From: a virus
Reading direction: 5' to 3' (one strand)
Length of the DNA stretch: 59,435 bases
Virus record (IMG/VR): IMGVR_UViG_3300020401_000018
Location: 1 to 59,435 of that record
In this document: in pieces, positions 2,531-57,709 of the stretch
How the letters are laid out: each line of letters opens with the position of its first letter
How positions within the stretch are numbered: position 1 is the stretch's first letter
The notes under the pieces: model-generated
What the model saw: only the letters and a program-made list of their open reading frames with translations
What the model was told of the DNA's origin: nothing
The model's database searches: none
Made by a program: the position numbers and the translations under genes

Positions 2531-3746
2531 AAACTTAGAAGCATTAAATGCTGTAGTAGTTGCGAAAGGAAATAAATCTGAAGCAGCTAAAACTTTAGGC
2601 ATACCCAGAACTACTCTGGTAAGCAGACTAGAAGCGGCTGAAAGAGAGGGGCTGAAACCTTCTGTTAATCCTCCAGATACTCAAGCTGCCTTGATTGAAC
2701 AAAAGATTATATATGATTTACAAATTTCAGAATTAAAAAAACATATACAAGAACTTGCAAAAGAAAATATAACAGCTGAAAATGTACGTAAGATTGTATT
2801 CAAGTTAGAGAAGCATACACCTAAACCACCTAAGTGGTTAGTAAAATCTTCTCCTGCCAAGGGGGCACCTGGAGTTCCTACTTTGTTTTTATCAGATTTT
2901 CACTGGGGTGAAGTAGTTGATCCTGAGTCCATTAATAATCTAAATGACTACAACAATAAAATTGCACAAAAAAGATTAAGAACAACTGTAGAAACCACTA
3001 TTGATCTGTGTACAAATCACATGGTTAATCCTAAATATCCTGGAATTGTAGTAGCTCTAGGTGGCGACATGATCTCAGGCCACATTCATGAAGAGTTAAC
3101 TGAAACAAATGCAGGAACTAATATCGAATGTGTATTAGATTTGTTTGATCATTTAATATGGGCAATTGATTCTTTAGCAGATGTATTTGGTAAAGTATTT
3201 GTACCATGTGCTTATGGTAATCATGGCAGAATGTTTAAACAGTTCAGGCATAAACAAGCAGCAGCTACTAGCTTTGACTGGATGCTTTATCTAATGTTGG
3301 AAAAACATTACAAGAAAGATCCTCGTATTACATTTATGGTTCCTACGGGCTATGATGCTTACTACAAAGTATACAACATAAACTATTTATTAACACACGG
3401 AGATAGATTAGGAGCTAAAGGTGGAGCAGGTATAATAGGGATGCTTGGCCCAGTAGCTAGGGGTGTACAAAAAATAAAGACTGAGTATGCCACGCATAAG
3501 AAACCTATAGATTATGTTATTATGGGACACTGGCATCAGTACATAACTCTTAATGGAATTATAGTGAATGGTTCTTTGAAAGGATACGATGAGTATGCAG
3601 CTAGTTCTAGGTTTGCTTTTGAAATTCCTAAACAAGCTTTGTGGTTTACGCATCCTAAATACGGAGTTACTTTTCAGTTGCCGATACTTTCGGAAACTAA
3701 CACGATAACTAAAACTAAAAATGATTGGGTTCAGTGGGTAAAATAA
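2514..3746 (+). CDS. Calcineurin-like metallophosphoesterase with N-terminal HTH
   Basis: 410 residues from ATG 2514, which has GGAG 9 nt upstream. The N-terminus carries a Fis-type helix-turn-helix (around NKSEAAKTLGIPRTTLVSRL), then a coiled-coil stretch, then a two-metal phosphoesterase domain: SDFHWGE (motif I), GGDMISG (motif II), YGNHGR (motif III), THGDR, and GHWHQ (motif V). Such proteins hydrolyse phosphodiesters or phosphomonoesters; with a DNA-binding helix attached a role on nucleic acid is plausible but not shown. Similar HTH-metallophosphoesterases occur in marine podoviruses. The next small membrane gene overlaps its 3' end. Confidence 0.85.
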   Translation: MVTENKNLEALNAVVVAKGNKSEAAKTLGIPRTTLVSRLEAAEREGLKPSVNPPDTQAALIEQKIIYDLQISELKKHIQELAKENITAENVRKIVFKLEKHTPKPPKWLVKSSPAKGAPGVPTLFLSDFHWGEVVDPESINNLNDYNNKIAQKRLRTTVETTIDLCTNHMVNPKYPGIVVALGGDMISGHIHEELTETNAGTNIECVLDLFDHLIWAIDSLADVFGKVFVPCAYGNHGRMFKQFRHKQAAATSFDWMLYLMLEKHYKKDPRITFMVPTGYDAYYKVYNINYLLTHGDRLGAKGGAGIIGMLGPVARGVQKIKTEYATHKKPIDYVIMGHWHQYITLNGIIVNGSLKGYDEYAASSRFAFEIPKQALWFTHPKYGVTFQLPILSETNTITKTKNDWVQWVK

Positions 3747-4266: not shown

Positions 4267-4697
4267 TGCCATTTGAAATGATAACTATGCTAGGCTCTAC
4301 CGTTCTCGGTGGAGTGATGAGCATATGGTCACAAAGTATAAAAGCTAAACAAGCTGAACAAAAGATGCTTTTACAAAGGGCAGAAGCACAGACTAATGCG
4401 TTTAGAGAAGCAAGAGAGTATGAGAACGTAGGTTTTCAATGGACAAGAAGAATCATAGCATTGACTGCTATTTTTGCAATTGTTGTTTTACCTAAGATAC
4501 TTCCTCTAATAGATCCACAAGCACAGGTAATAGTTGGATATACAGAATGGAAGCCTGGCTTCTTATTCTTTGAAGGTAAAGAAGTAATGCAATGGGTGCC
4601 TATGGCTCAGCGAGGAATTATTATAACTCCATTAGATACTAATTTAGTAGCGGCTATTATTGGTTTATACTTTGGTGGTAGTTTAGTTAAAAAATAA
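4266..4697 (+). CDS. Putative three-helix holin-like membrane protein
   Basis: 143 residues. Hydrophobic segments are at about 5-22 (Gly-rich), 61-82 (RIIALTAIFAIVVLPKIL) and 126-141; a charged, probably coiled segment rich in Gln, Glu and Ala (about 26-53) lies between the first two. The arrangement resembles the 3TM holin family of gene-transfer agents and marine phages, which form lesions in the inner membrane for lysis. TAATG overlaps join it to the genes on both sides. Holin function is inferred from topology and position. Confidence 0.6.
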   Translation: MPFEMITMLGSTVLGGVMSIWSQSIKAKQAEQKMLLQRAEAQTNAFREAREYENVGFQWTRRIIALTAIFAIVVLPKILPLIDPQAQVIVGYTEWKPGFLFFEGKEVMQWVPMAQRGIIITPLDTNLVAAIIGLYFGGSLVKK

Positions 4698-5311
4698 TGC
4701 AACAAAAAATTTGGCCTACTTTTGTAGACTTCGGTCTAGTTGATAGAGATTACACTTTTTTAAAAAATTTTATATCAAAAGAAGAAAGCCAATTAGCTTA
4801 TTACTATTCACTAATTAAAGCTATTAATCCATCTGAGACAGAAGACTCGCAGTCTCCTGGTTGGGACATTAGGAGTAATGATCCAATTGGTTTAGCCTTA
4901 TTGTATAAGGTTAAGAAGAAGATGGAAGCTTATGCTAATAAAAAATTATTTCCAACTTATTGTTATTATAGAGTTTATAAACAAGGTTCTGTTTTACTTC
5001 CACATATTGATAGACCGTCGTGCGAATATTCGGCTACCGTTTGTTTAGGATATAATAATTCCAATATACTTAATTACAATTGGCCTTTTCGTGTAGGCAA
5101 AGAAATGTTTATGATGCAACCAGGTGATGCGGTGTTATATAAAGGCTGTGATGTCACTCATTCTAGAGTTGGTAAATATGGAGGTATTGCCCAGACACAA
5201 ATTTTTCTACACTATGTAGATGCCGAAGGGCCTTTTAAAGATTTTAAACATGACAAGAAATGTGGGACAGAATGTTTGTTATGTGAAATAGAAGAGAGAT
5301 CTTTATTATAA
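4697..5311 (+). CDS. 2OG-Fe(II) oxygenase (1 of 6), with C-terminal Cys cluster
   Basis: 204 residues with the double-stranded beta-helix pattern of iron/2-oxoglutarate hydroxylases: LPHIDR gives the HxD iron ligands (His103, Asp105), and THSRVGKYGG gives the distal His155 in a GDAVLYKG...H context. The substrate is unknown. Unlike the other oxygenases here it ends in a Cys-x3-Cys-x2-Cys cluster (Cys189, 193, 196), spaced like a radical-SAM motif but C-terminal and probably only metal-binding. It sits in the holin-like cluster with TAATG overlaps on both sides. Confidence 0.8.
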   Translation: MQQKIWPTFVDFGLVDRDYTFLKNFISKEESQLAYYYSLIKAINPSETEDSQSPGWDIRSNDPIGLALLYKVKKKMEAYANKKLFPTYCYYRVYKQGSVLLPHIDRPSCEYSATVCLGYNNSNILNYNWPFRVGKEMFMMQPGDAVLYKGCDVTHSRVGKYGGIAQTQIFLHYVDAEGPFKDFKHDKKCGTECLLCEIEERSLL

Positions 5312-40937: not shown

Positions 40938-41375
40938 TTATTCCTTCACTATTTTTAATTTAGGTGCAGCAATTTTTTGCAAGCGCTCAATATCTCTAGC
41001 GATATCTTCATCACTATTGCCTGTTGCAAATGCATTTTGTATCTCAGTAATATTTCTATCAGTCCACAACGCTTGATGTTTACCTAAAAGTTCTAAAGAT
41101 CTTATAGCTGCGTTGTAGTCCCCCTCTTGTTCAGTTCTTTCAGCAATTCTAACAAGACGGCGAAGAATGTCATCCGCTTCGATTTTTGTTCGTTTAATTG
41201 ATTCACCTTTTAATTCCGCTATTCTTTCAGAGATCCGAGCCTGACGAAGAAGTGTATAGGCATTCTTCTTCGCATGCTGGGTAGAATAACCCGCACGAAT
41301 TGCAGCCTGCACAGCATTTAAGTCTTTAATAAATTCATTGCAAAAGACTTCTTGTCTTTCGGTCAACTCTTTCAT
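40938..41375 (-). CDS. terS: Terminase small subunit
   Basis: 145 residues from ATG 41375 (GGAG 6 nt upstream). The N-terminal LTERQEVFCNEFIKDLNAVQAAIRAGYS is the DNA-binding helix-turn-helix of terminase_2-type small subunits; a central helix follows and the C-terminus is basic (RLQKIAAPKLKIVKE). It recognises phage DNA and recruits the large subunit. First gene of the late block. Confidence 0.88.
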   Translation of the reverse strand: MKELTERQEVFCNEFIKDLNAVQAAIRAGYSTQHAKKNAYTLLRQARISERIAELKGESIKRTKIEADDILRRLVRIAERTEQEGDYNAAIRSLELLGKHQALWTDRNITEIQNAFATGNSDEDIARDIERLQKIAAPKLKIVKE

Positions 41376-41399
41376 TAGGATCTCCAATTATTTTTTTAG

Positions 41400-41429
41400 A
41401 TTATAGCATAAATGTAGGTTGCAATGCAA
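41400..41429 (-). promoter_or_regulatory. Late-block promoter before terS (minus strand)
   Basis: TTGCAT (41429-41424), 18-bp spacer, TATAAT (41405-41400) with an extended TG upstream (TGCTATAAT). Predicted +1 near 41393, leader about 18 nt. Its -35 lies inside a 15-bp dyad (41417-41431), a likely operator. Confidence 0.75.
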
Positions 41430-41472
41430 CCCTGGTTAGTTTATAATTAACTTGTATCATGCAAGTGATACA
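41417..41472. promoter_or_regulatory. Cluster of dyads at the divergent junction (operator candidates)
   Basis: GGTTGC-AAT-GCAACC (41417-41431) overlaps the terS -35; TGTATCA-6nt-TGATACA (41453-41472) follows; CTTGTA (41451-41456) can also pair with TACAAG (41480-41485). These symmetrical sites are where a repressor or activator of late genes would bind. Confidence 0.5.
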
Positions 41473-41830
41473 TCTCCTGTACAAGGGGAGGACTCCACAA
41501 GCGTACATAACACACACCACACTCTCTCTCACATTACGCTTCCTCCCCTTTCTCTCCACACAAAGGGGGCACGCCCGACCTTTTAAAAAAAAGTTCAAAA
41601 TTTGCTAAAATTTTTTGAGACGCATATAGTATAGTACTAGCTGTGCGTTTTTTTGGGTGGGGTATTTTTATTTTACCCCCACCCCCCAGACCCCCTGCCA
41701 GTTTAGAATGATTCTAAACTAGAGCTTGGTCAGGGTTGCCAGACCTATGAGAACAAAAGGTGAACGAATTAAGGCAAGCAGGACGCTGGAACGTAAGGAA
41801 TTGCCTGCCAAAATGGCAGTGAATAGTGTA
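41473..41830. other. Noncoding control region with long dyads
   Basis: No convincing gene in this stretch. It holds a C+T-rich run (41500-41560), a GGGGGCAC octamer (41565-41572), two A/T runs, a hairpin GGGTGGGGTA/TACCCCCACCC (41655-41684) lacking a U-tract on either strand, a perfect inverted repeat of 10-bp arms AGTTTAGAAT/ATTCTAAACT around one base (41700-41720), and CTGCCA-AAA-TGGCAG (41805-41819). A 36-codon frame at 41747-41857 overlaps the next promoter and has no good ribosome binding site. Confidence 0.55.
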
Positions 41831-42647: not shown

Positions 42648-42702
42648 TGTCGTGTTTCCTATCAAGTCGGTAGGGTTAATTAAATAAATAAAAGAGGTGT
42701 TT

Positions 42703-44151
42703 ATGTTTAAATTAGACTATATATACTTCAGACGATTATTTAATAAATTGTGGAAAAAAGAAATATTTTACAATCAGTTTTCTGATAAATATTATTTTTC
42801 TGCATATATTAAATCGTATGTAAATGATAATAATACCCATCTTGATTATTACAAAGATGATGTTATGGGTCATTTCAGAACATACAATCAAGCTGAAGAA
42901 TTTTTTGATGAATTAAGGTCATTAAAAAATAAGATGTATCGTTTGTTAGTTGCAAAAAATGTTTTCGTAGGTGACTTTGGTATGGAGTATGTTCCATCTG
43001 ATGCTCCACTATGTAAACTATATCGAGCAGTTGACGATCTTGTTGATTATTTCAATGACAACAAATTTGAATTCTACAATCTTGCAGAATGTTCGTGTTG
43101 TGGCGAGGTTTGTGGATATGATGATACATTCTCAGCTTACAATGGAGATGAAACCGTAGGCGAGTGTTGTCAAGGCCAATACAGCTATTGTGATGAAGCC
43201 GATACCTATTTCAGAGATGATGACTATGAATCTTGGGAACAATACCAAGAACCATCTGACGAGGATTATGATTCAGGTTTTGAGGGTGTATATCGGTACG
43301 ATTGTGACCCATTGGATTATTTATACTTCATGCATACTAAATCAGAATCGTCCATACCCCGTCATAAACAAAGATGGTCAGGGCTTGAGATAGAGATGGA
43401 GGCTACGAGCAGATGTCCTGAAGATTTACCATTACAGATACGCAATGTTTTTAAGGATAATTATTGTATCTTCAAAAGTGATGGGTCGTTAAGTCATGGG
43501 TTCGAGCTAGTGTCTGCCCCTTGCACCTTAGCATACCACCGAGAACGAATTGAAGAATTATTTGATTCAGGTGTATTGCGTGATGATGAAGGCAAGGCAT
43601 TTGTCAGGGGTTGGAATACTGATACCGCAGGTATGCACATACATCTTGATCGTAAAATGTTATCATCAGTACAAGTTGGTAAACTGTTAGTGTTTATCAA
43701 TAATGAATTTAACAGATCATTTATTGAGAAAATTGCTGGTCGTTCAGAGACTTTCTACGAGGATTCTGACTGTACTTCCTACGCAGTTATGCGTAAGAAG
43801 AAAATCACAGATGGTGGTCAACGCAATTACAATAAGTATGAAGCGGTCAATCTGGCTCATTCAAGCACAGTTGAATTGAGAATCTTCAGAAGTAATCTGA
43901 CTAAAGATGGAATCATGCGAGCATTGGAGTTTAGCTATGCCCTTGTTGATTTCTTACAACAGAATACCTGCCGAGAATCTGATCAGCATTACAAGGAATT
44001 CTTGAAGTGGTTTAACCGATCACCTCAGAATCGTGCTAGTTATCCATACTTCTATGGTTGGCTAGTTCGTAAAGGTTATCTATCTGGTATACCTTCGAGG
44101 TCTATTACTAGACAATATGACCAAGCGATTGACGCAGTTGTCAATCAATAA
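42703..44151 (+). CDS. Amidoligase-family (COOH-NH2 ligase) enzyme
   Basis: 482 residues from ATG 42703 (AGAGG 5 nt upstream). The first 220 residues form a separate Cys/Asp/Tyr-rich region with CSCCGEVCGYDD, a possible metal site. The rest is a glutamine-synthetase-fold amidoligase: RWSGLEIEMEAT, FKSDGSLSHGFELVSAP, GMHIHLDRKM, YNKYEAVNLAHSSTVELRIFRSN. Such enzymes use ATP to form amide or peptide bonds. It is followed 30 bp later by a class II glutamine amidotransferase, a pairing known from phages and predicted to modify peptides or cell-wall components. Confidence 0.85.
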   Translation: MFKLDYIYFRRLFNKLWKKEIFYNQFSDKYYFSAYIKSYVNDNNTHLDYYKDDVMGHFRTYNQAEEFFDELRSLKNKMYRLLVAKNVFVGDFGMEYVPSDAPLCKLYRAVDDLVDYFNDNKFEFYNLAECSCCGEVCGYDDTFSAYNGDETVGECCQGQYSYCDEADTYFRDDDYESWEQYQEPSDEDYDSGFEGVYRYDCDPLDYLYFMHTKSESSIPRHKQRWSGLEIEMEATSRCPEDLPLQIRNVFKDNYCIFKSDGSLSHGFELVSAPCTLAYHRERIEELFDSGVLRDDEGKAFVRGWNTDTAGMHIHLDRKMLSSVQVGKLLVFINNEFNRSFIEKIAGRSETFYEDSDCTSYAVMRKKKITDGGQRNYNKYEAVNLAHSSTVELRIFRSNLTKDGIMRALEFSYALVDFLQQNTCRESDQHYKEFLKWFNRSPQNRASYPYFYGWLVRKGYLSGIPSRSITRQYDQAIDAVVNQ

Positions 44152-44181
44152 CTTTTAACTTTAGAGAAAGGAAAGTGTGTT

Positions 44182-45051
44182 ATGTGCTTAATTATACAAA
44201 CTGATACACCTAAAAATCTCAATCGAGATTTATTAGAGTGTGCTTACGAAAACAATTCTGATGGCTTTGGACTTATGCTATTCAATCAAGGCAAGGTTCA
44301 TACCCACAAAATTGTACCAAAAACTTTCGCTGATGTAGAAAAAATGTGGAAGTCATACAAGGATATGGACATTCCTATGGCTTTACATTTTAGATTCAAT
44401 ACGCATGGCGAAACTAATCGAGCTATGTCTCACCCATTTCAAGTTCTTAATAAACAAGATCATGGAAGAGATTTATGGCTCATGCATAATGGACCAAACT
44501 TGCCTACACCTATGATTGATAAAGGTAAGTCTGACACCCATCAATTTATCAAGTGGATTATCAAACCACAACTAGCCAACAATCCTAACTTGCTATACAA
44601 TCTTGAATGGCAAGAATCGTTGGGCGAGATGATTGGTACAGATAAGCTAGTGTTCTTAGATGGTAAGACAAAAGAATTTACGATCATCAACTCTGATGAA
44701 GGTAAAGATGTCAAGGGAATTGGGTGGCTATCCAATACCTATTCTATTAGTAGAGGACTTGGGTATAACTATGATGTAGTCAACAATAAGAAATCTGTGA
44801 TTCAATATGGTAAGAAAACTAGCTATGGTGGACTTGCTTGGGACGATTGGCAGTATGGAGATGACGCATACAAATATGATGATATCTATGGTACGGCTTC
44901 TAAACCTGATGAAAATTCATGGTTTAATATCACAGATGAAATGCTTGTGGGGGCAAGTCTCGAGGATATCGAAGATCTGGTTGTCTCGAATCCTCAAGGT
45001 GTAGCCGACTATCTATTTGATCTTTGTGCTTACAGAATGTCAAATAAGTAA
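44182..45051 (+). CDS. Class II glutamine amidotransferase
   Basis: 289 residues with an N-terminal nucleophile: MCLI (Cys2 exposed after Met removal), NNSDGFGLMLF, LHFRFNTHGETNRAMSHPF and LWLMHNGP. These are the glutaminase signature residues, so it releases ammonia from glutamine. There is no synthetase domain in this protein; the amidoligase just upstream is the natural acceptor partner. The C-terminal 90 residues are Asp/Tyr-rich and unique. Ribosome binding site AAAGG. Confidence 0.9.
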   Translation: MCLIIQTDTPKNLNRDLLECAYENNSDGFGLMLFNQGKVHTHKIVPKTFADVEKMWKSYKDMDIPMALHFRFNTHGETNRAMSHPFQVLNKQDHGRDLWLMHNGPNLPTPMIDKGKSDTHQFIKWIIKPQLANNPNLLYNLEWQESLGEMIGTDKLVFLDGKTKEFTIINSDEGKDVKGIGWLSNTYSISRGLGYNYDVVNNKKSVIQYGKKTSYGGLAWDDWQYGDDAYKYDDIYGTASKPDENSWFNITDEMLVGASLEDIEDLVVSNPQGVADYLFDLCAYRMSNK

Positions 45052-45073: not shown

Positions 45074-45272
45074 ACACCGAAAGAACACCGATTGAATACC
45101 GATTGGACACGATCTGTCAAGGGGGGCAGATGTAATGATTAGTATGTATTGTCCAAAGATATATACTATATATTGTAATAATAATATATTAATAATCGTA
45201 TATTATATAGCAGTACAGGGGTGTCATACCCCAAATCGTTGCCATTCGGTAATCACTCGGTGCTTGTTCGGT
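45074..45272. repeat. Facing arrays of 11-bp-phased iteron-like boxes (origin or operator candidate)
   Basis: ACCGA at 45076, 45087 and 45098 (exact 11-bp steps, unit about AxACCGATTG), and its complement TCGGT at 45246, 45257 and 45268 (exact 11-bp steps) about 145 bp away. One helical turn between boxes puts all on the same DNA face. The segment between includes an AT-rich stretch that could open. This is the look of a replication origin with iterons, or of an operator set; the gene for a ribbon-helix-helix-like protein lies about 600 bp downstream. Confidence 0.6.
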
Positions 45273-45292
45273 GATATACGAAAAGAAAACTA

Positions 45293-45320
45293 TTGAAAAA
45301 TATTTTATATATGATATAAT
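45293..45320 (+). promoter_or_regulatory. Promoter for structured RNA / small-gene operon
   Basis: TTGAAA (45293-45298), 16-bp spacer, TATAAT (45315-45320). Predicted +1 at 45327, next to the 5' strand of a 9-bp closing stem. The last TCGGT box ends 21 bp upstream of the -35, a usual place for an activator. Confidence 0.75.
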
Positions 45321-45326
45321 ACGAAA

Positions 45327-45655
45327 TTGAAAGCGACAGTTAAAGCCTTCGTTGACTTGGTTTATTGACTGACATAATCAACCTCGCCAAGTACATCATT
45401 GGTAAGACAATGTAGTTTTAATTGAGTGTGGCTACTCAATCGCTTTCATGCCACTAGATACATTTGGTCGAGCGAAACAAGTCGTACTCGTACAGGAGAT
45501 AAGAGCCAAAGAGAAGTGGTGTGGCGAAAGTTTATGTATCTATTTTGCCACAAACCTAACTATGTGTGTGCAGTTAGTTTGAATCTTGGGGGCAACAGTA
45601 TTGCCAAGCGAGTTCTCGTTAGCCAATCGTTGTTACCCCACAATTATGGAGATAA
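45327..45655 (+). ncRNA. Candidate structured RNA, 122 nt core or up to about 330 nt
   Basis: Core: TGAAAGCGA (45328-45336) pairs with TCGCTTTCA (45440-45448); inside are ACTTGG/CCAAGT (45355-45360 with 45387-45392), CATTG/CAATG (45397-45412) and TTGAGT/ACTCAA (45422-45439), together a four-way junction. Downstream further stems: GCCACT/AGTGGT (45450-45520), TGTGGC/GCCACA (45520-45552), CTAACT/AGTTAG (45556-45577), GGCAA/TTGCC (45591-45605) and AGCGA/TCGTT (45607-45620). No tRNA, tmRNA, RNase P or intron signature. The 3' end is not marked by a terminator. Confidence 0.55.
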
Positions 45656-45659
45656 AAGT

Positions 45660-45863
45660 ATGGGAGAAATATGGGGAATGAGTAAAACATTATTTGGAGT
45701 TTACTTTATATTAGGAATTATATGGGCATGGGCATTGATTGCTGTGTTTCATGCTGTGACAGATTCACAGCGTAGTATAGCACAATCAATCGACTTACCT
45801 GAAATAGTTGACACAGTATCAACGATACCTGTTGATGTTTATAAGTTAGAAAGAGAAAACTGA
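45660..45863 (+). CDS. Small single-span membrane protein, 67 aa
   Basis: ATG 45660 has GGAG 8 nt upstream; the same frame is open further upstream through the structured RNA, but without a start signal. Residues 9-31 form a membrane helix (LFGVYFILGIIWAWALIAVF); the rest is polar. Function unknown. Confidence 0.65.
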   Translation: MGEIWGMSKTLFGVYFILGIIWAWALIAVFHAVTDSQRSIAQSIDLPEIVDTVSTIPVDVYKLEREN

Positions 45864-46995: not shown

Positions 46996-47096
46996 CAAAC
47001 GGAGATCCTAATTTATTTGTTATTGCTATCATCATGGGAGTGACCATGTCAGCTTTGTTGTGTATTGATCCTGTGGCTAGGGTAATAGGACTATGA
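46992..47096 (+). CDS. 34-aa membrane peptide
   Basis: ATGA overlaps at both ends place it firmly in the operon. Residues 8-26 are hydrophobic (LFVIAIIMGVTMSALLCI), so it should insert in the membrane. Unknown role. Confidence 0.6.
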   Translation: MTNGDPNLFVIAIIMGVTMSALLCIDPVARVIGL

Positions 47097-47674
47097 GAGA
47101 ATTTTTACTTCCAGAATCAAGTGGCATGCATGCATGGTATATTGCTGATAGCTTGTGTGATGAGATCATACACTATTTTGAAAAGTCAGAGATGAAAGAA
47201 CGAGGGGTATGTGGTAAGATAGAATATAAACCTGATGTAAAAGATTCCACAGATGTCCCATTAAATCCTAACAGATTTTTATACGAAAGATATACTGAAG
47301 AATTAAATCGTGGCTTGGGTGAGTACATGAATAAATTTAATTTATTACATACCGTTGGTAAGTTTGATGATAGCAGAGAAAATACTTTAATACAAAAGTA
47401 TTATCCTAATCAAGGCTTTCATAAAATGCATTGTGAGCAAAGTCACATACACCCTTGGCGATTAGTTGTTTTCATGACATACTTAAATAATGTACCTAGA
47501 GGCGGCACTAGATTCCGTCATCAGGGTATAGACTTGCCTTGTGAAAAAGGTTTGACAGTGCTTTGGCCTGCTGGATATACACATGCTCATGCAGGTATAA
47601 CCAATTCAAATGGTTCAGCAGGTATTACGGAAACAAAATACATTGTAACAGGCTGGCTATCATATGTCGAATAA
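47093..47674 (+). CDS. 2OG-Fe(II) oxygenase (2 of 6), prolyl-4-hydroxylase-like
   Basis: 193 residues. QKYYPNQGFHKMHCEQ gives iron ligands His113 and Glu115 (HxE in place of the common HxD), LVVFMTYLNNVPRGGTRF the core strands, GLTVLWPAGYTHAHAG the distal His164, and Lys182 in TKYIVTGWLSY would bind 2-oxoglutarate. Similar oxygenases occur in cyanophages. Target unknown. Followed by the GGCT-like gene with an 11-nt overlap. Confidence 0.85.
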   Translation: MREFLLPESSGMHAWYIADSLCDEIIHYFEKSEMKERGVCGKIEYKPDVKDSTDVPLNPNRFLYERYTEELNRGLGEYMNKFNLLHTVGKFDDSRENTLIQKYYPNQGFHKMHCEQSHIHPWRLVVFMTYLNNVPRGGTRFRHQGIDLPCEKGLTVLWPAGYTHAHAGITNSNGSAGITETKYIVTGWLSYVE

Positions 47675-49677: not shown

Positions 49678-49824
49678 ATGGCAAAGAAATGGAAATCATA
49701 TTCTGCTCACGAAGCAGGACCAAAGAAAAGAACAAGTATAGGTAATAGTATACGAAGTAAGCCAAAGAATAAACATAAGCGACGTAGTTATAAAAAATAT
49801 AAAGGGCAAGGAAAACGAAGATGA
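49678..49824 (+). CDS. 48-aa very basic protein
   Basis: Lys/Arg-rich throughout; contains EAGPKKRTSIGNSIRSKPKN, a family seen repeatedly in marine phages. Likely nucleic-acid binding. Starts one base after the previous stop; ATGA overlap with the following oxygenase. Confidence 0.7.
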   Translation: MAKKWKSYSAHEAGPKKRTSIGNSIRSKPKNKHKRRSYKKYKGQGKRR

Positions 49825-50399
49825 CACAAAAAGAAATACAAGAAGGAATTACAGAGACAGTAGGAACATTCCACCCATTTGTTCCTAATTATGGATACCA
49901 CCAATGGAAACTAAAAGGTGAAAGGGATAAATATCTAGCTGACTATTTAATGCTAAGACACAATCAAGGTAGGTTTATTTCCAATGATTATTCAACACCG
50001 CTGAGTGAGGACTTGCGAATAGATGCTGAACACCCTGATGTGTCGTCAGCCGTAGAAGAAATAATGTCACATATAAAAACTGTTAATCCTAAATTAAAAC
50101 TAATGACTAATCAGTTTGGGCAACCAGAGATATGGGGTCAAGTAAATATGAAAGGCGGATCAACTGCCATGCATAAGCATGACGATTGTTTTGCGTTTGT
50201 GTATTATGTTAATGCCCCCGTTGATGGAGGTATGCTTAAGTTTTACATTAACTATGATACAATGTCTCATGTTTGTACTACAGAGCCTGTATCTAAATGT
50301 TTATTGTTTTTCCCTGGTTGGGTTCCGCATTTTACTATGCGAAATCAATCTGACTCACCAAGGATAGTTCTTTCTGGTAACGTAATATTTGGAGATTAA
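49821..50399 (+). CDS. 2OG-Fe(II) oxygenase-like protein (3 of 6)
   Basis: 192 residues. STAMHKHDDCFAFVYYVN gives likely ligands His120 and Asp122, LLFFPGWVPHFTMRN the distal His170, and PRIVLSGNV Arg181 for 2-oxoglutarate. The WGQVNMKGGSTAMHKH context resembles a small group of uncharacterised phage and bacterial oxygenases. Target unknown. Confidence 0.75.
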   Translation: MTQKEIQEGITETVGTFHPFVPNYGYHQWKLKGERDKYLADYLMLRHNQGRFISNDYSTPLSEDLRIDAEHPDVSSAVEEIMSHIKTVNPKLKLMTNQFGQPEIWGQVNMKGGSTAMHKHDDCFAFVYYVNAPVDGGMLKFYINYDTMSHVCTTEPVSKCLLFFPGWVPHFTMRNQSDSPRIVLSGNVIFGD

Positions 50400-50400
50400 A

Positions 50401-51087
50401 ATGACTCAACAATCAAAGCAACTGTTCTGGAAATTTTCTAATGCTTTCACTAAAGAGTTGAGAGATCTTGTGATTAAAGATTTAGACAATGATAATCTTA
50501 GATCAGCAGAAACTTATCAAAGAGATTTGCAACAGGACGTACATAAACATGGCGTAGAAAAGAACATACGAGATGCGAGCACTACAACTTTAGATAACAA
50601 AGATATAAATGATCATATATCTAACATGATGACTATTGCAAATAAACGAGCAGGCTGGGATTTTGATATTGCTGTGAATGAGAAGATGCAATTTATAAAA
50701 TATAAACCAGGAGGACATTTCCGTCCTCATACTGATACAAGTTTTCAGGGACCAAGTGCAACATTTCAATGGAAAGATGATGCACCCAATGAAGGATTTA
50801 AGGTTATACAAATAGCAGATGCATATTTGTTAGGCAATGTAAGAAAGATTAGTTCTACACTTCTGTTAAATGATAATTTTTCTGGAGGTGGTATGTCTCT
50901 TTATTACATAGCCGTGCAGGATAAAGAAAGTTCAAACTGGACCTTGGGCATTGAAGAAGTTCCTTTAGATTTAAAAGCTGGTGATTTAATTTTCTTTCCG
51001 TCTGGAGTATGGCATGGTATAAAGCCTGTAACAAATGGGACACGATATTCTTTAGTAACTTGGTTCGGAGGGCCACCAATAAAATGA
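50401..51087 (+). CDS. 2OG-Fe(II) oxygenase (4 of 6), PKHD-type
   Basis: 228 residues from ATG 50401 (GGAG 7 nt upstream). MQFIKYKPGGHFRPHTDT supplies His110 and Asp112; SSTLLLNDNFSGGGMSLYY the core; LKAGDLIFFPSGVWHGIKPV His205; and TRYSLVTWFGG Arg215. This is the PKHD-type hydroxylase pattern (as in PiuC). An insert of about 25 residues (115-140) follows the HxD. ATGA overlap with the nuclease gene. Confidence 0.88.
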   Translation: MTQQSKQLFWKFSNAFTKELRDLVIKDLDNDNLRSAETYQRDLQQDVHKHGVEKNIRDASTTTLDNKDINDHISNMMTIANKRAGWDFDIAVNEKMQFIKYKPGGHFRPHTDTSFQGPSATFQWKDDAPNEGFKVIQIADAYLLGNVRKISSTLLLNDNFSGGGMSLYYIAVQDKESSNWTLGIEEVPLDLKAGDLIFFPSGVWHGIKPVTNGTRYSLVTWFGGPPIK

Positions 51088-52115: not shown

Positions 52116-52670
52116 ATGAGTATTAATATTATAGACGATTTTATATCTGGTGTGGATCAGACTAGATTGGAACAAGCCATCTTAACAGATGAGTCTATTC
52201 CTTGGAACTACAGGGCTAGTCCTAATCACAATCTAGATTCAACTAACAATGGAGATTTTGTTCATAGGGTTTTTGCTTTTGATATTTCTAATTCGTTTTA
52301 TCATATCAATCCTTATATGTTAGATGTTATGAGTCCTTTGATGGTTCGCCTTGGATCGGATTACTTGAGACAAATCAAGATTAATATATATCCAAGATCA
52401 GATACTTTAATGGAACATGCTCCGCATGTAGATAAACTTGATTTTCAGAATAATAATACGTTGCCGTGGCAAGGAGAACAGGAGTACAGCTTGATATATT
52501 ATGTAAATAACAATGATGGATACACTAAATTTTATCCTGATAATGAAGACCCAGTTGCTGTAGAAAGTAAGAGGGGCAGAATAGTTTATACAGATGTTCC
52601 AACTGTACACAATAGCACTACTTGCACTAATGCAAATGTAAGATGTACAATTAATTTTAACTTTAGATAG
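52116..52670 (+). CDS. 2OG-Fe(II) oxygenase (5 of 6)
   Basis: 184 residues. MEHAPHVDKLDF gives His104 and Asp106, YSLIYYVNNNDGYTKFY the core, VPTVHNSTTCTNANVRCTINF His165 and Arg176. Compact form without extra domains. First gene behind the 52076 promoter and followed 8 bp later by the Sak4-like ATPase, so it is made with the replication proteins; a DNA or replisome target is possible but not shown. Confidence 0.8.
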   Translation: MSINIIDDFISGVDQTRLEQAILTDESIPWNYRASPNHNLDSTNNGDFVHRVFAFDISNSFYHINPYMLDVMSPLMVRLGSDYLRQIKINIYPRSDTLMEHAPHVDKLDFQNNNTLPWQGEQEYSLIYYVNNNDGYTKFYPDNEDPVAVESKRGRIVYTDVPTVHNSTTCTNANVRCTINFNFR

Positions 52671-55553: not shown

Positions 55554-57060
55554 AGATCAGACATTGTGGGTTTATTGCGGTTTAGACTGCACACTAACTC
55601 ACGAGATATGGACTAAGATAGAAAAAGATTTAGGTAAGAATGATCATGATTATAGGAAAACATATCAATTTGAATTGGATATGTTGAAACCTGCTATGCA
55701 CATGATGTTGAGGGGGTTAAAGGTAGATGAGAAGACAGTAGGCAAACTCAAAGCCCCCCTTGTCTCGTCCCGTGTAAAGCTTGAGCGTATGTTACATTTG
55801 TTTGCTAATGCAGTATGGGATAAAGATCTTAATCATAATAGTCCTACTCAGCTTAAAAGTTTTTTATATGAGTGGTTGGGATTACCGCCAGTTATATCTT
55901 ACGTAAAGGGTAAACAAAAAGTATCTACAGATAAAGAAGCACTCGAGCATTTAATACAAGAGTATCCTAGAGCTAGGCCTTTTTGCAGGACTATACTTGC
56001 GTTAAGAGATATTGACAAGCAGCTAAACATATTGAACTGTAAACGAGATCGTGATGGAAGAGTCAGATGTTCTTTTAAAGTTGCAGGAACTGAGACTGGT
56101 AGATGGGCTAGTTCAGAAAGTCCTTGGGGCACTGGCACTAATTTACAAAATATCACAAAGGATATGCGTGAAATATTTGTACCCGATGGGGACAATGTTT
56201 TATTTTATGCAGACCTAGAGCAAGCCGAGTCGAGAGTAACTGCTTACGTTGCAGGCGATCAGGGGTATATAAATGCTTGCGAAGGAGAAGACTTACACAC
56301 ACAAGTAGTTAAAATGGTGTGGCCAAATATGGGCTGGTCATCTGACCCTGTGCAAAACAGAGAGTTAGCAGACCGTCCGTACATTGGCCACTTCAGTTAC
56401 AGAGACATGTGTAAGCGAGCAGGGCATGGTACTAATTATGGATTGTCAGCCACTTCATTGGGCAGACATCTTAAAATTAAGTTATCTCATGCTACAAGGT
56501 TTCAACTACTTTATTACGGAGGAGTAGTTGCTTTGGCATCTCTTGAGAGATGGCATAAACAGGACAGAGAAGGAGGCTTCCAAGAACTGATTGATGGGGG
56601 CACGGTTCTAGGGTCAGGCCCTTCCTCTCTCGTTCGTATCGAAGGGGCATTCCCTGGAATCCGAAAGTGGCACAGTGCTATTGCTAATCAGCTTAAGGAA
56701 AGTGGTGCGTTAACTACTCCATTAGGTCGTCGCAGACAGTTTTGGGGACGCACGGAAGAAGGCACTACCTTACGCAAAGCAATTGCATATGTGCCACAAT
56801 CTACTATTGGAGATCTATTAAATCTTGGTTTATACAGAGTGTGGAATGAACTTAAAGATGATAACGTAGAGATACTAGGGCAAGTACACGATGCTATATT
56901 GGGACAGTTTCCAAAAGATAAAGCAGATGTAGTTGTTCCTAAAATTTTAAATTGTATGAAGAACCCTCTTGAAGTAAATGGTAGACAAATGATAATACCA
57001 TCAGACTGTGAGATTGGTGTCAATTGGAAGGATATGAAAAAGTATGTTGGTAACAGATAA
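55507..57060 (+). CDS. Family-A DNA polymerase with Exo III motif (split PolA, part 2)
   Basis: 517 residues from ATG 55507 (AGGAG 7 nt upstream; an upstream in-frame reading from 55489 has none). It begins with Exo III YCGLDCT (Tyr23, Asp27), the missing end of the exonuclease at 53921-55003. Polymerase motifs: A, FYADLEQAESR (Asp236); B, KRAGHGTNYG (Lys303, Tyr311) with His307 where E. coli Pol I has Phe762; C, QVHDAI (His461, Asp462). Replicates the phage genome. Overlaps the following oxygenase by 17 nt. Confidence 0.93.
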   Translation: MQIIKNTEISQKSLSKDQTLWVYCGLDCTLTHEIWTKIEKDLGKNDHDYRKTYQFELDMLKPAMHMMLRGLKVDEKTVGKLKAPLVSSRVKLERMLHLFANAVWDKDLNHNSPTQLKSFLYEWLGLPPVISYVKGKQKVSTDKEALEHLIQEYPRARPFCRTILALRDIDKQLNILNCKRDRDGRVRCSFKVAGTETGRWASSESPWGTGTNLQNITKDMREIFVPDGDNVLFYADLEQAESRVTAYVAGDQGYINACEGEDLHTQVVKMVWPNMGWSSDPVQNRELADRPYIGHFSYRDMCKRAGHGTNYGLSATSLGRHLKIKLSHATRFQLLYYGGVVALASLERWHKQDREGGFQELIDGGTVLGSGPSSLVRIEGAFPGIRKWHSAIANQLKESGALTTPLGRRRQFWGRTEEGTTLRKAIAYVPQSTIGDLLNLGLYRVWNELKDDNVEILGQVHDAILGQFPKDKADVVVPKILNCMKNPLEVNGRQMIIPSDCEIGVNWKDMKKYVGNR

Positions 57061-57709
57061 TGCTTTGCCAGAAGACGATAGACTAAAGTTAATTAACAGT
57101 TTATCTTTTCAGACTATGATACATAAATCTGATTATAATTGGTGGGACGGCTGGTGGTCATGTCCTCCTAGAAATCAAGTTGAACAGACGATATATAAAC
57201 TTTGGAGTCCTCACTTAGATGGACACAATGATGGAGGTGGTTTTGAATATTGGTCTAGAGAATGTTCAGATATACATGAAGGATTAGCTTGGCATCAAGA
57301 TACTGATGAATCTTTTTACTACTCAGATAAATACAATATAGCCACAGCTTCAATGGTTTACTATCCCATTGTAGATAATTTACTTGGAGGATCATTTGAG
57401 GTATACCCATATGATGAAAGAGAAAAGTTATTAGATGTTAGAAAATATTTACAGTATGCAAATGACATAGAGAAAGAAGTTATTAGAGCTATCCAAAATA
57501 GAGTAGTTATATATGATTCAGCAAGGGTACACAGGATTAGTCCTATGTACAGAGGGTACAGAAAAAATTTAGTTGCTAGCTTCTGGGCAGTCAAACCAGA
57601 AGGCTTTGCAAAATCAGAAAATTTAAAACAGGAATCTACTCAAGAAGATCCTTTTTGGGAAGTAGTTCCAGCAACTTGGGAGGAAAAATATGAAAAAGAT
57701 CTTAATTAA
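57044..57709 (+). CDS. 2OG-Fe(II) oxygenase (6 of 6)
   Basis: 221 residues. LAWHQDTDES gives His84 and Asp86, ATASMVYYPIVDNLLGGSFEVYPYDE the core, and VVIYDSARVHRISPMYRGYRKN His163 and Arg173. Trp-rich N-terminus (DYNWWDGWWSC). Lies between DNA polymerase and helicase, overlapping both neighbours. Target unknown. Confidence 0.85.
   Translation: MLVTDNALPEDDRLKLINSLSFQTMIHKSDYNWWDGWWSCPPRNQVEQTIYKLWSPHLDGHNDGGGFEYWSRECSDIHEGLAWHQDTDESFYYSDKYNIATASMVYYPIVDNLLGGSFEVYPYDEREKLLDVRKYLQYANDIEKEVIRAIQNRVVIYDSARVHRISPMYRGYRKNLVASFWAVKPEGFAKSENLKQESTQEDPFWEVVPATWEEKYEKDLN

Follow-up and report, generated by a model that had tools for sequence, protein, structure and literature searches.

Predicted three-module structured RNA behind a phage promoter and its possible role as a transcript leader

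Does a stretch of a tailed-phage genome that opens directly behind a promoter-like sequence specify a structured noncoding RNA, and what could such an RNA do? Its neighbours on the + strand are a glutamine-amidotransferase-like gene on one side (44182-45051, a label based on relatives) and a gene for a small membrane-type protein on the other (45660-45863). The window, by which we mean the whole 59,435-bp virus record, carries tailed-phage genes, i.e., ribonucleotide reductase, terminase, DNA polymerase A and a primase-like protein, and the nearest annotated relatives of its terminase are the pelagiphages HTVC027P and HTVC023P (~40% identity). Genes run leftward on the - strand from ~41.4 kb (structural, late) and rightward on the + strand from ~42 kb. 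Positions 42697-45051 encode an Amidoligase-like protein (Pfam Amidoligase_2) and then the glutamine-amidotransferase-like protein, which has relatives in Methylophilales and Rhizobium phages. Five ORFs are reminiscent of 2OG-Fe(II) oxygenases (4697-5311, 47093-47674, 49821-51087, 52116-52670 and 57044-57709); 47093-47674, the sole one tested, gave a borderline Pfam match (26.2 bits vs cut-off 27).

Judged from sequence comparison, it is close to certain that the ~330 nt in question specify a conserved structured RNA, which folds as separate modules B, C and D. An earlier note on this DNA had proposed a structured RNA behind a promoter. The conserved structure stands, but the RNA consists of three modules and not of one fold, module B is optional and mobile, and the whole is perhaps a leader.

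Promoter context and distribution

The promoter, recognized from sequence and relatives, reads TTGAAA-16-TGATATAAT (TATAAT) with a TGn extended -10 (45293-45320, + strand), and the extended -10 TGnTATAAT is retained, 6-10 nt 5' of the RNA, in the aligned relatives that have the RNA. Transcription is predicted to start at ~45327, at the base of the closing stem of module B, and the promoter is placed so that the RNA would form the 5' leader of an early transcript starting beside an origin-like site. This site (module A, 45075-45274) comprises two inverted four-iteron arrays (CACCGA/TCGGTG) with a spacing of exactly 11 bp, the left with CACCGA, CACCGA, TACCGA and CACGAT (45075-45114, + strand; similar arrays occur in relatives) and the right with ATCGTTG, TCGGTA, TCGGTG and TCGGTG (45235-45274, - strand), separated by an AT-rich core that contains ATCGTATATTAT. 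The first gene of the transcript (45660-45863, + strand), preceded by the ribosome-binding site GGAGA (45648-45652), encodes a small membrane-type protein of 67 aa (...WAWALIA...) whose homologs occupy the equivalent position in relatives and which has no match in Pfam or PHROG. The RNA continues into the first-gene mRNA, no terminator having been found between the two, and it may thus be a leader, not a free-standing RNA.

A search of IMG/VR with the neighbouring protein gave 38 loci, to which DNA patterns added more, and the RNA stands ahead of small-protein genes in about ten distinct IMG/VR sequences; L058 is one more, with the first module only. The early leader is without counterpart in most related phages and is therefore not essential to their lifestyle. 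Two exact DNA patterns had no match in 84,980 bacterial and archaeal genomes, a search that distant forms would escape; the region had no DNA match among GenBank phages, where module B gave only short chance matches, and a model of module C did not find it in the related phages HTVC027P, HTVC023P and DSL-LC04. These absences from databases are based on exact patterns plus a few scans. Several candidates were set aside: the TACAGGAGATG sites of the pelagiphages HTVC027P and HTVC023P lie inside genes, the pattern matches in L063-L077, L042, L044 and L045 were read as chance because the remainder of the element is missing, and the weak model matches in L018 and G016 are at chance level.

Conserved pairing in the three modules

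Module B (45328-45448, + strand) is a four-way junction of helices P1-P4, supported by covariation and by its presence or absence at two promoters. The nine-pair closing stem drawn in the earlier note is exact (45328-45336/45440-45448; TGAAAGCGA/TCGCTTTCA), and its three internal hairpins were recovered at 45355-45360/45387-45392, 45397-45401/45408-45412 and 45422-45427/45434-45439. The coincidence of the 5' end with the predicted start, also claimed there, holds in that the stem begins at or within 1-2 nt of ~45327. All cells of the 30 pairs are paired (100%), and 6/30 pairs are altered on both sides. A covariance model of B yielded matches of 114-120 bits in six distinct sequences, which are those used to build it. 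The unpaired stretch AAGCCUUCGUUGA is conserved. A pseudoknot AGCC/GGCU (45344-45347/45430-45433) is possible within B, where RNAalifold draws an alternative GCC/GGU pairing; as both are invariant, the choice between them remains undecided.

Module C (45450-45551, + strand), likewise supported by covariation, consists of the two nested helices P5 (45450-45455/45515-45520) and P6 (45464-45467/45506-45509), the small hairpin P6b (45469-45471/45482-45484), the 9-bp hairpin P7 (45521-45529/45543-45551) and an 8-bp pseudoknot that joins the strand between P5 and P6 with the loop of P7 (45456-45463/45534-45541). Its 30 pairs are intact in 99.3% of cells and 7/30 are altered on both sides, two of these seven in the pseudoknot (AGAUACAU/AUGUAUCU vs AAACACAU/AUGUGUUU). 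The further stems anticipated to 45620, at least five in number, are real and extend to 45639 in module D (45556-45639, + strand). This module comprises the hairpin P8 (45556-45561/45572-45577) and an elongated hairpin of P9 (45589-45592/45636-45639), P10 (45594-45596/45629-45631), P11 (45600-45603/45624-45627) and P12 (45607-45612/45615-45620). Its 200 pair cells divide into 180 Watson-Crick, 20 G-U and 0 broken, with compensated pairs in P8-P12; the helices were aligned by hand, and D is thus the weakest of the three modules. D is present wherever C is in all sequences examined, and its 3' end lies ~9 nt before the ribosome-binding site.

The covariation looked for in homologs is therefore found in B, C and D. 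In B and C together, 13 pairs are altered on both sides and almost none is broken. Under a null of independent substitution at equal divergence (window vs L008, L058 and L056 for B; window vs L006 and L008 for C), none of 20,000 simulations reached as many compensations as observed without breaking a pair, and shifting the pairing partners by 1-3 columns abolished the pairing in B and C (28-52% of cells). Between L056 and L007, changes fell on 2/45 unpaired and 17/60 paired positions. The non-Watson-Crick cells across B, C and D number 34 G-U, 0 A-C and 2 G-A, which points to the + strand as the RNA; G-U was allowed when the helices were picked, and this softens the 34-to-0 argument. The sequences are few (six for B; for C and D, 9-10), and one or two deep branches account for much of their variation, so that the cells are not independent events. 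Folding of the single 329-nt sequence did not stand out (minimum free energy -83.4 vs -78.9 for shuffles, z -0.85, with 19/100 shuffles as good), and the G+C enrichment over the neighbours that had been reported is not borne out (0.36-0.42 vs 0.34-0.43 in the neighbouring genes). The RNA thus owes its above-chance status to the comparative evidence, not to thermodynamics or G+C.

The region does not code for protein. The frame 45426-45660 was rejected since it is closed in relatives, already by a stop in L003, which is 98% identical, and all three frames between module C and the ribosome-binding site hold stops in most relatives. A search of the window against Rfam 15 gave nothing at gathering scores and, at E<=10, only sub-threshold matches far under the family cut-offs, and module B of L058 matched no family; in relatives, the sole match was the tRNA of L008. 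A tRNA or tmRNA identity was rejected, as ARAGORN was negative in the window and in L058. With compensatory changes in all three modules, closed frames and no Rfam family, the view that this is a structured noncoding RNA of no recognised class is supported.

A portable first module and a motif shared by two leaders

At the early promoter, module B is present in the window, L003, L004, L056 and L008 and absent in L006, L007, L010, L047 and L048, in which ACA(A/G)TATTCAGT and module C directly follow the -10 box; in L008, B is followed by ACAATATTCAGT. L058 carries B alone (1477-1574), behind a TTGACT-TATAAT promoter and ahead of a 127-aa gene, and its close relatives L039, L014, L012 and L018 share this promoter and gene, but their leader is plain, ~30 nt long and without B. 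These comparisons indicate that B comes and goes as one unit at the -10/+1 junction in two unrelated promoters, and that it is tied to transcript starts and not to one gene. Recombination between similar promoter sequences, which we infer only, could be the route.

Module C contains the conserved unpaired motif GUACAGGAGAU (45490-45500, + strand), which is Shine-Dalgarno-like in sequence, is found in relatives and lies at ~+163 from the predicted start, with no start codon within reach downstream in the sequence around it. The whole window genome holds exactly two exact copies; the other (41472-41482, - strand) lies in the leader, likewise structured, with which the divergent late operon opens ahead of a terS-like ORF (40938-41387). 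In the genome of L004, too, the copies number exactly two and sit in the corresponding operon leaders, and both L006 and the genome of L009 have GUACAGGAGAU in the early leader and a late leader with GUACAGGAGAC, in which the motif ends in C. It may be that AGGAG in this shared motif is no more than a Shine-Dalgarno sequence.

The late leader RNA (window 41395-41640, - strand, upstream of the terS-like gene) is conserved in a wider group of marine phages; its carriers are the window, L078, L082, L006, L024, L027, L029-L035 and L089-L102. A long covarying stem of varying sequence (GGGGAGGA/UCCUCCCC, GGGGGAAGGU/ACCUUCCCCU, CGGGGAGAC/GUCUCCCCG, GAAGGAUGGGA/UCCCAUCCUUU) is followed by the near-invariant (U/G)UACAGGAGA(C/U)G and then by a second covarying hairpin, and this leader is structured also in phages without B and C. 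Most late leaders have no start codon in reach of the Shine-Dalgarno-like motif, and Rfam gave no match for the late leader in the window, L029, L035, L082 and L092.

Possible modes of action

Although no transcript data exist, we consider it probable that the RNA acts in cis as a leader; that it specifically modifies RNA polymerase is a tentative inference, possible rather than probable, for which activity data are also lacking. Module B would fold while the first 120 nt emerge, and module C would present GUACAGGAGAU beside the pseudoknot. The binding partner of B and C could be RNA polymerase itself or an elongation factor of phage or host, and elongation would then be altered by antitermination or antipausing, in a manner like HK022 put or lambda nut. 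With the motif present in the late leader as well, a single factor could serve both divergent operons. Module D, ending beside the ribosome-binding site, might tune translation of the first gene. In L008 and L009, the leader contains a tRNA-Cys(GCA) gene, which has module C before it and module D after it (L008 2835-2908; L009 1935-2008), and ordinary tRNA processing would detach B-C from the mRNA, which suits a co-transcriptional action. A similar tRNA-Cys of L013 lies elsewhere (2962-3035).

HK022 put is a cis-acting antiterminator RNA, which suppresses termination by way of the beta-prime zinc-binding domain. It spans ~70 nt with two adjacent stem-loops, putL lies just downstream of PL, and put acts without tethering (PMC9378689). 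As in put, a structured RNA would here start the transcript behind a phage early sigma70-type promoter ('early' being inferred from gene content and the start being predicted), but it comprises a four-way junction of ~100-121 nt and a pseudoknotted module of ~100 nt, neither of which resembles the two stem-loops of put, and no activity has been shown. A hairpin-flanked linear conserved motif that recurs from one phage operon leader to another recalls lambda nut (boxA + boxB), but the motif here is GUACAGGAGAU and no N-like protein was identified. The boxA consensus is YGCUCUUUA-like, and no boxA-like site was found in the 45300-45660 leader with up to one mismatch allowed. A consensus scan of 45-59.4 kb gave no excess of sense-direction intrinsic terminators (3 on the + strand), hence no need for antitermination is visible downstream. 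The scarcity of evident terminators, the lack of boxA and the dissimilar fold argue against treating this RNA as a put or nut element.

The closing helix of B, which starts no more than 1-2 nt from the predicted +1, would also fit a 5' mRNA stabiliser, in which a blunt P1 and a start-less Shine-Dalgarno sequence (GUACAGGAGAU) docking the 30S subunit keep early and late transcripts from being degraded. The shared motif, which lacks a reachable start codon in the early leader and in most late ones, resembles the STAB-SD of cry3A mRNA in this respect (PMC4113751), but STAB-SD lies near the 5' end whereas the motif here is ~163 nt in and inside a covarying structured module. Excision of the L008/L009 tRNA would moreover remove the stabiliser from the mRNA, and a simple stabiliser needs neither a covarying pseudoknot nor unpaired bases that are more conserved than paired ones, which makes this reading unlikely in our view. 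The same excision would, on the contrary, free B-C as a trans-acting regulatory, decoy or scaffold RNA like GOLLD or ROOL, and conserved unpaired stretches (AAGCCUUCGUUGA in B and the core of C) are in keeping with this. GOLLD and ROOL, ornate phage RNAs, are frequently found near tRNAs (PMC12286853) and share with the present RNA a pseudoknot and, in two relatives, a tRNA gene within the transcript. However, the present RNA is clearly smaller at only ~330 nt, has no Rfam match and is an mRNA leader at a promoter, no terminator was found between it and the gene, B stands alone ahead of a different gene in L058, and complements to the unpaired motifs within the phage genome reach no more than 10-11 nt, so we give a trans-acting RNA as little credit as the stabiliser.

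Module D, which accompanies C throughout, covaries and ends so close to the ribosome-binding site, could be the switch of a riboswitch or protein-binding operator that controls translation or attenuation for the first gene. This we find improbable for the RNA as a whole, as B and C lie 110-320 nt upstream, the tRNA separates them from D in L008/L009, L058 has B before a different gene, and no known riboswitch family was matched. Least credible is a part in the replication origin, as primer RNA or single-strand DNA hairpins, which the symmetric 11-bp iterons around the AT-rich core, conserved beside the promoter directly upstream, would invite: the origin-like module is more widely conserved than the RNA and occurs without it in L024, L035 and L036, no origin-like site adjoins B in L058, the excess of G-U over A-C cells is unexpected for DNA hairpins, and the transcript heads away from the core. 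Three things favour action in cis on the transcription complex over the stabiliser and the translational operator: the inserted tRNA, the constant location at +1 and the occurrence of one motif in two operons.

A broader conjecture, for which our confidence is low, would join these observations into a mobile promoter-proximal RNA cassette, in which B, a self-contained folded unit, is gained and lost precisely where transcripts of unrelated promoters begin, one recognition motif is common to C and the late leader, and the whole is a phage-encoded, RNA-based system that reprograms host RNA polymerase as it transcribes either of the divergent operons. To our knowledge, very few examples of phage RNA-only control of the host RNA polymerase have been described. 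The presence or absence of the 5' unit exactly at +1 in sister genomes provides natural occupied/empty pairs, and the late-leader RNA of the wider phage group is maybe equally interesting. The covarying leader is a directly testable candidate for a new RNA-only control of polymerase in marine phages.
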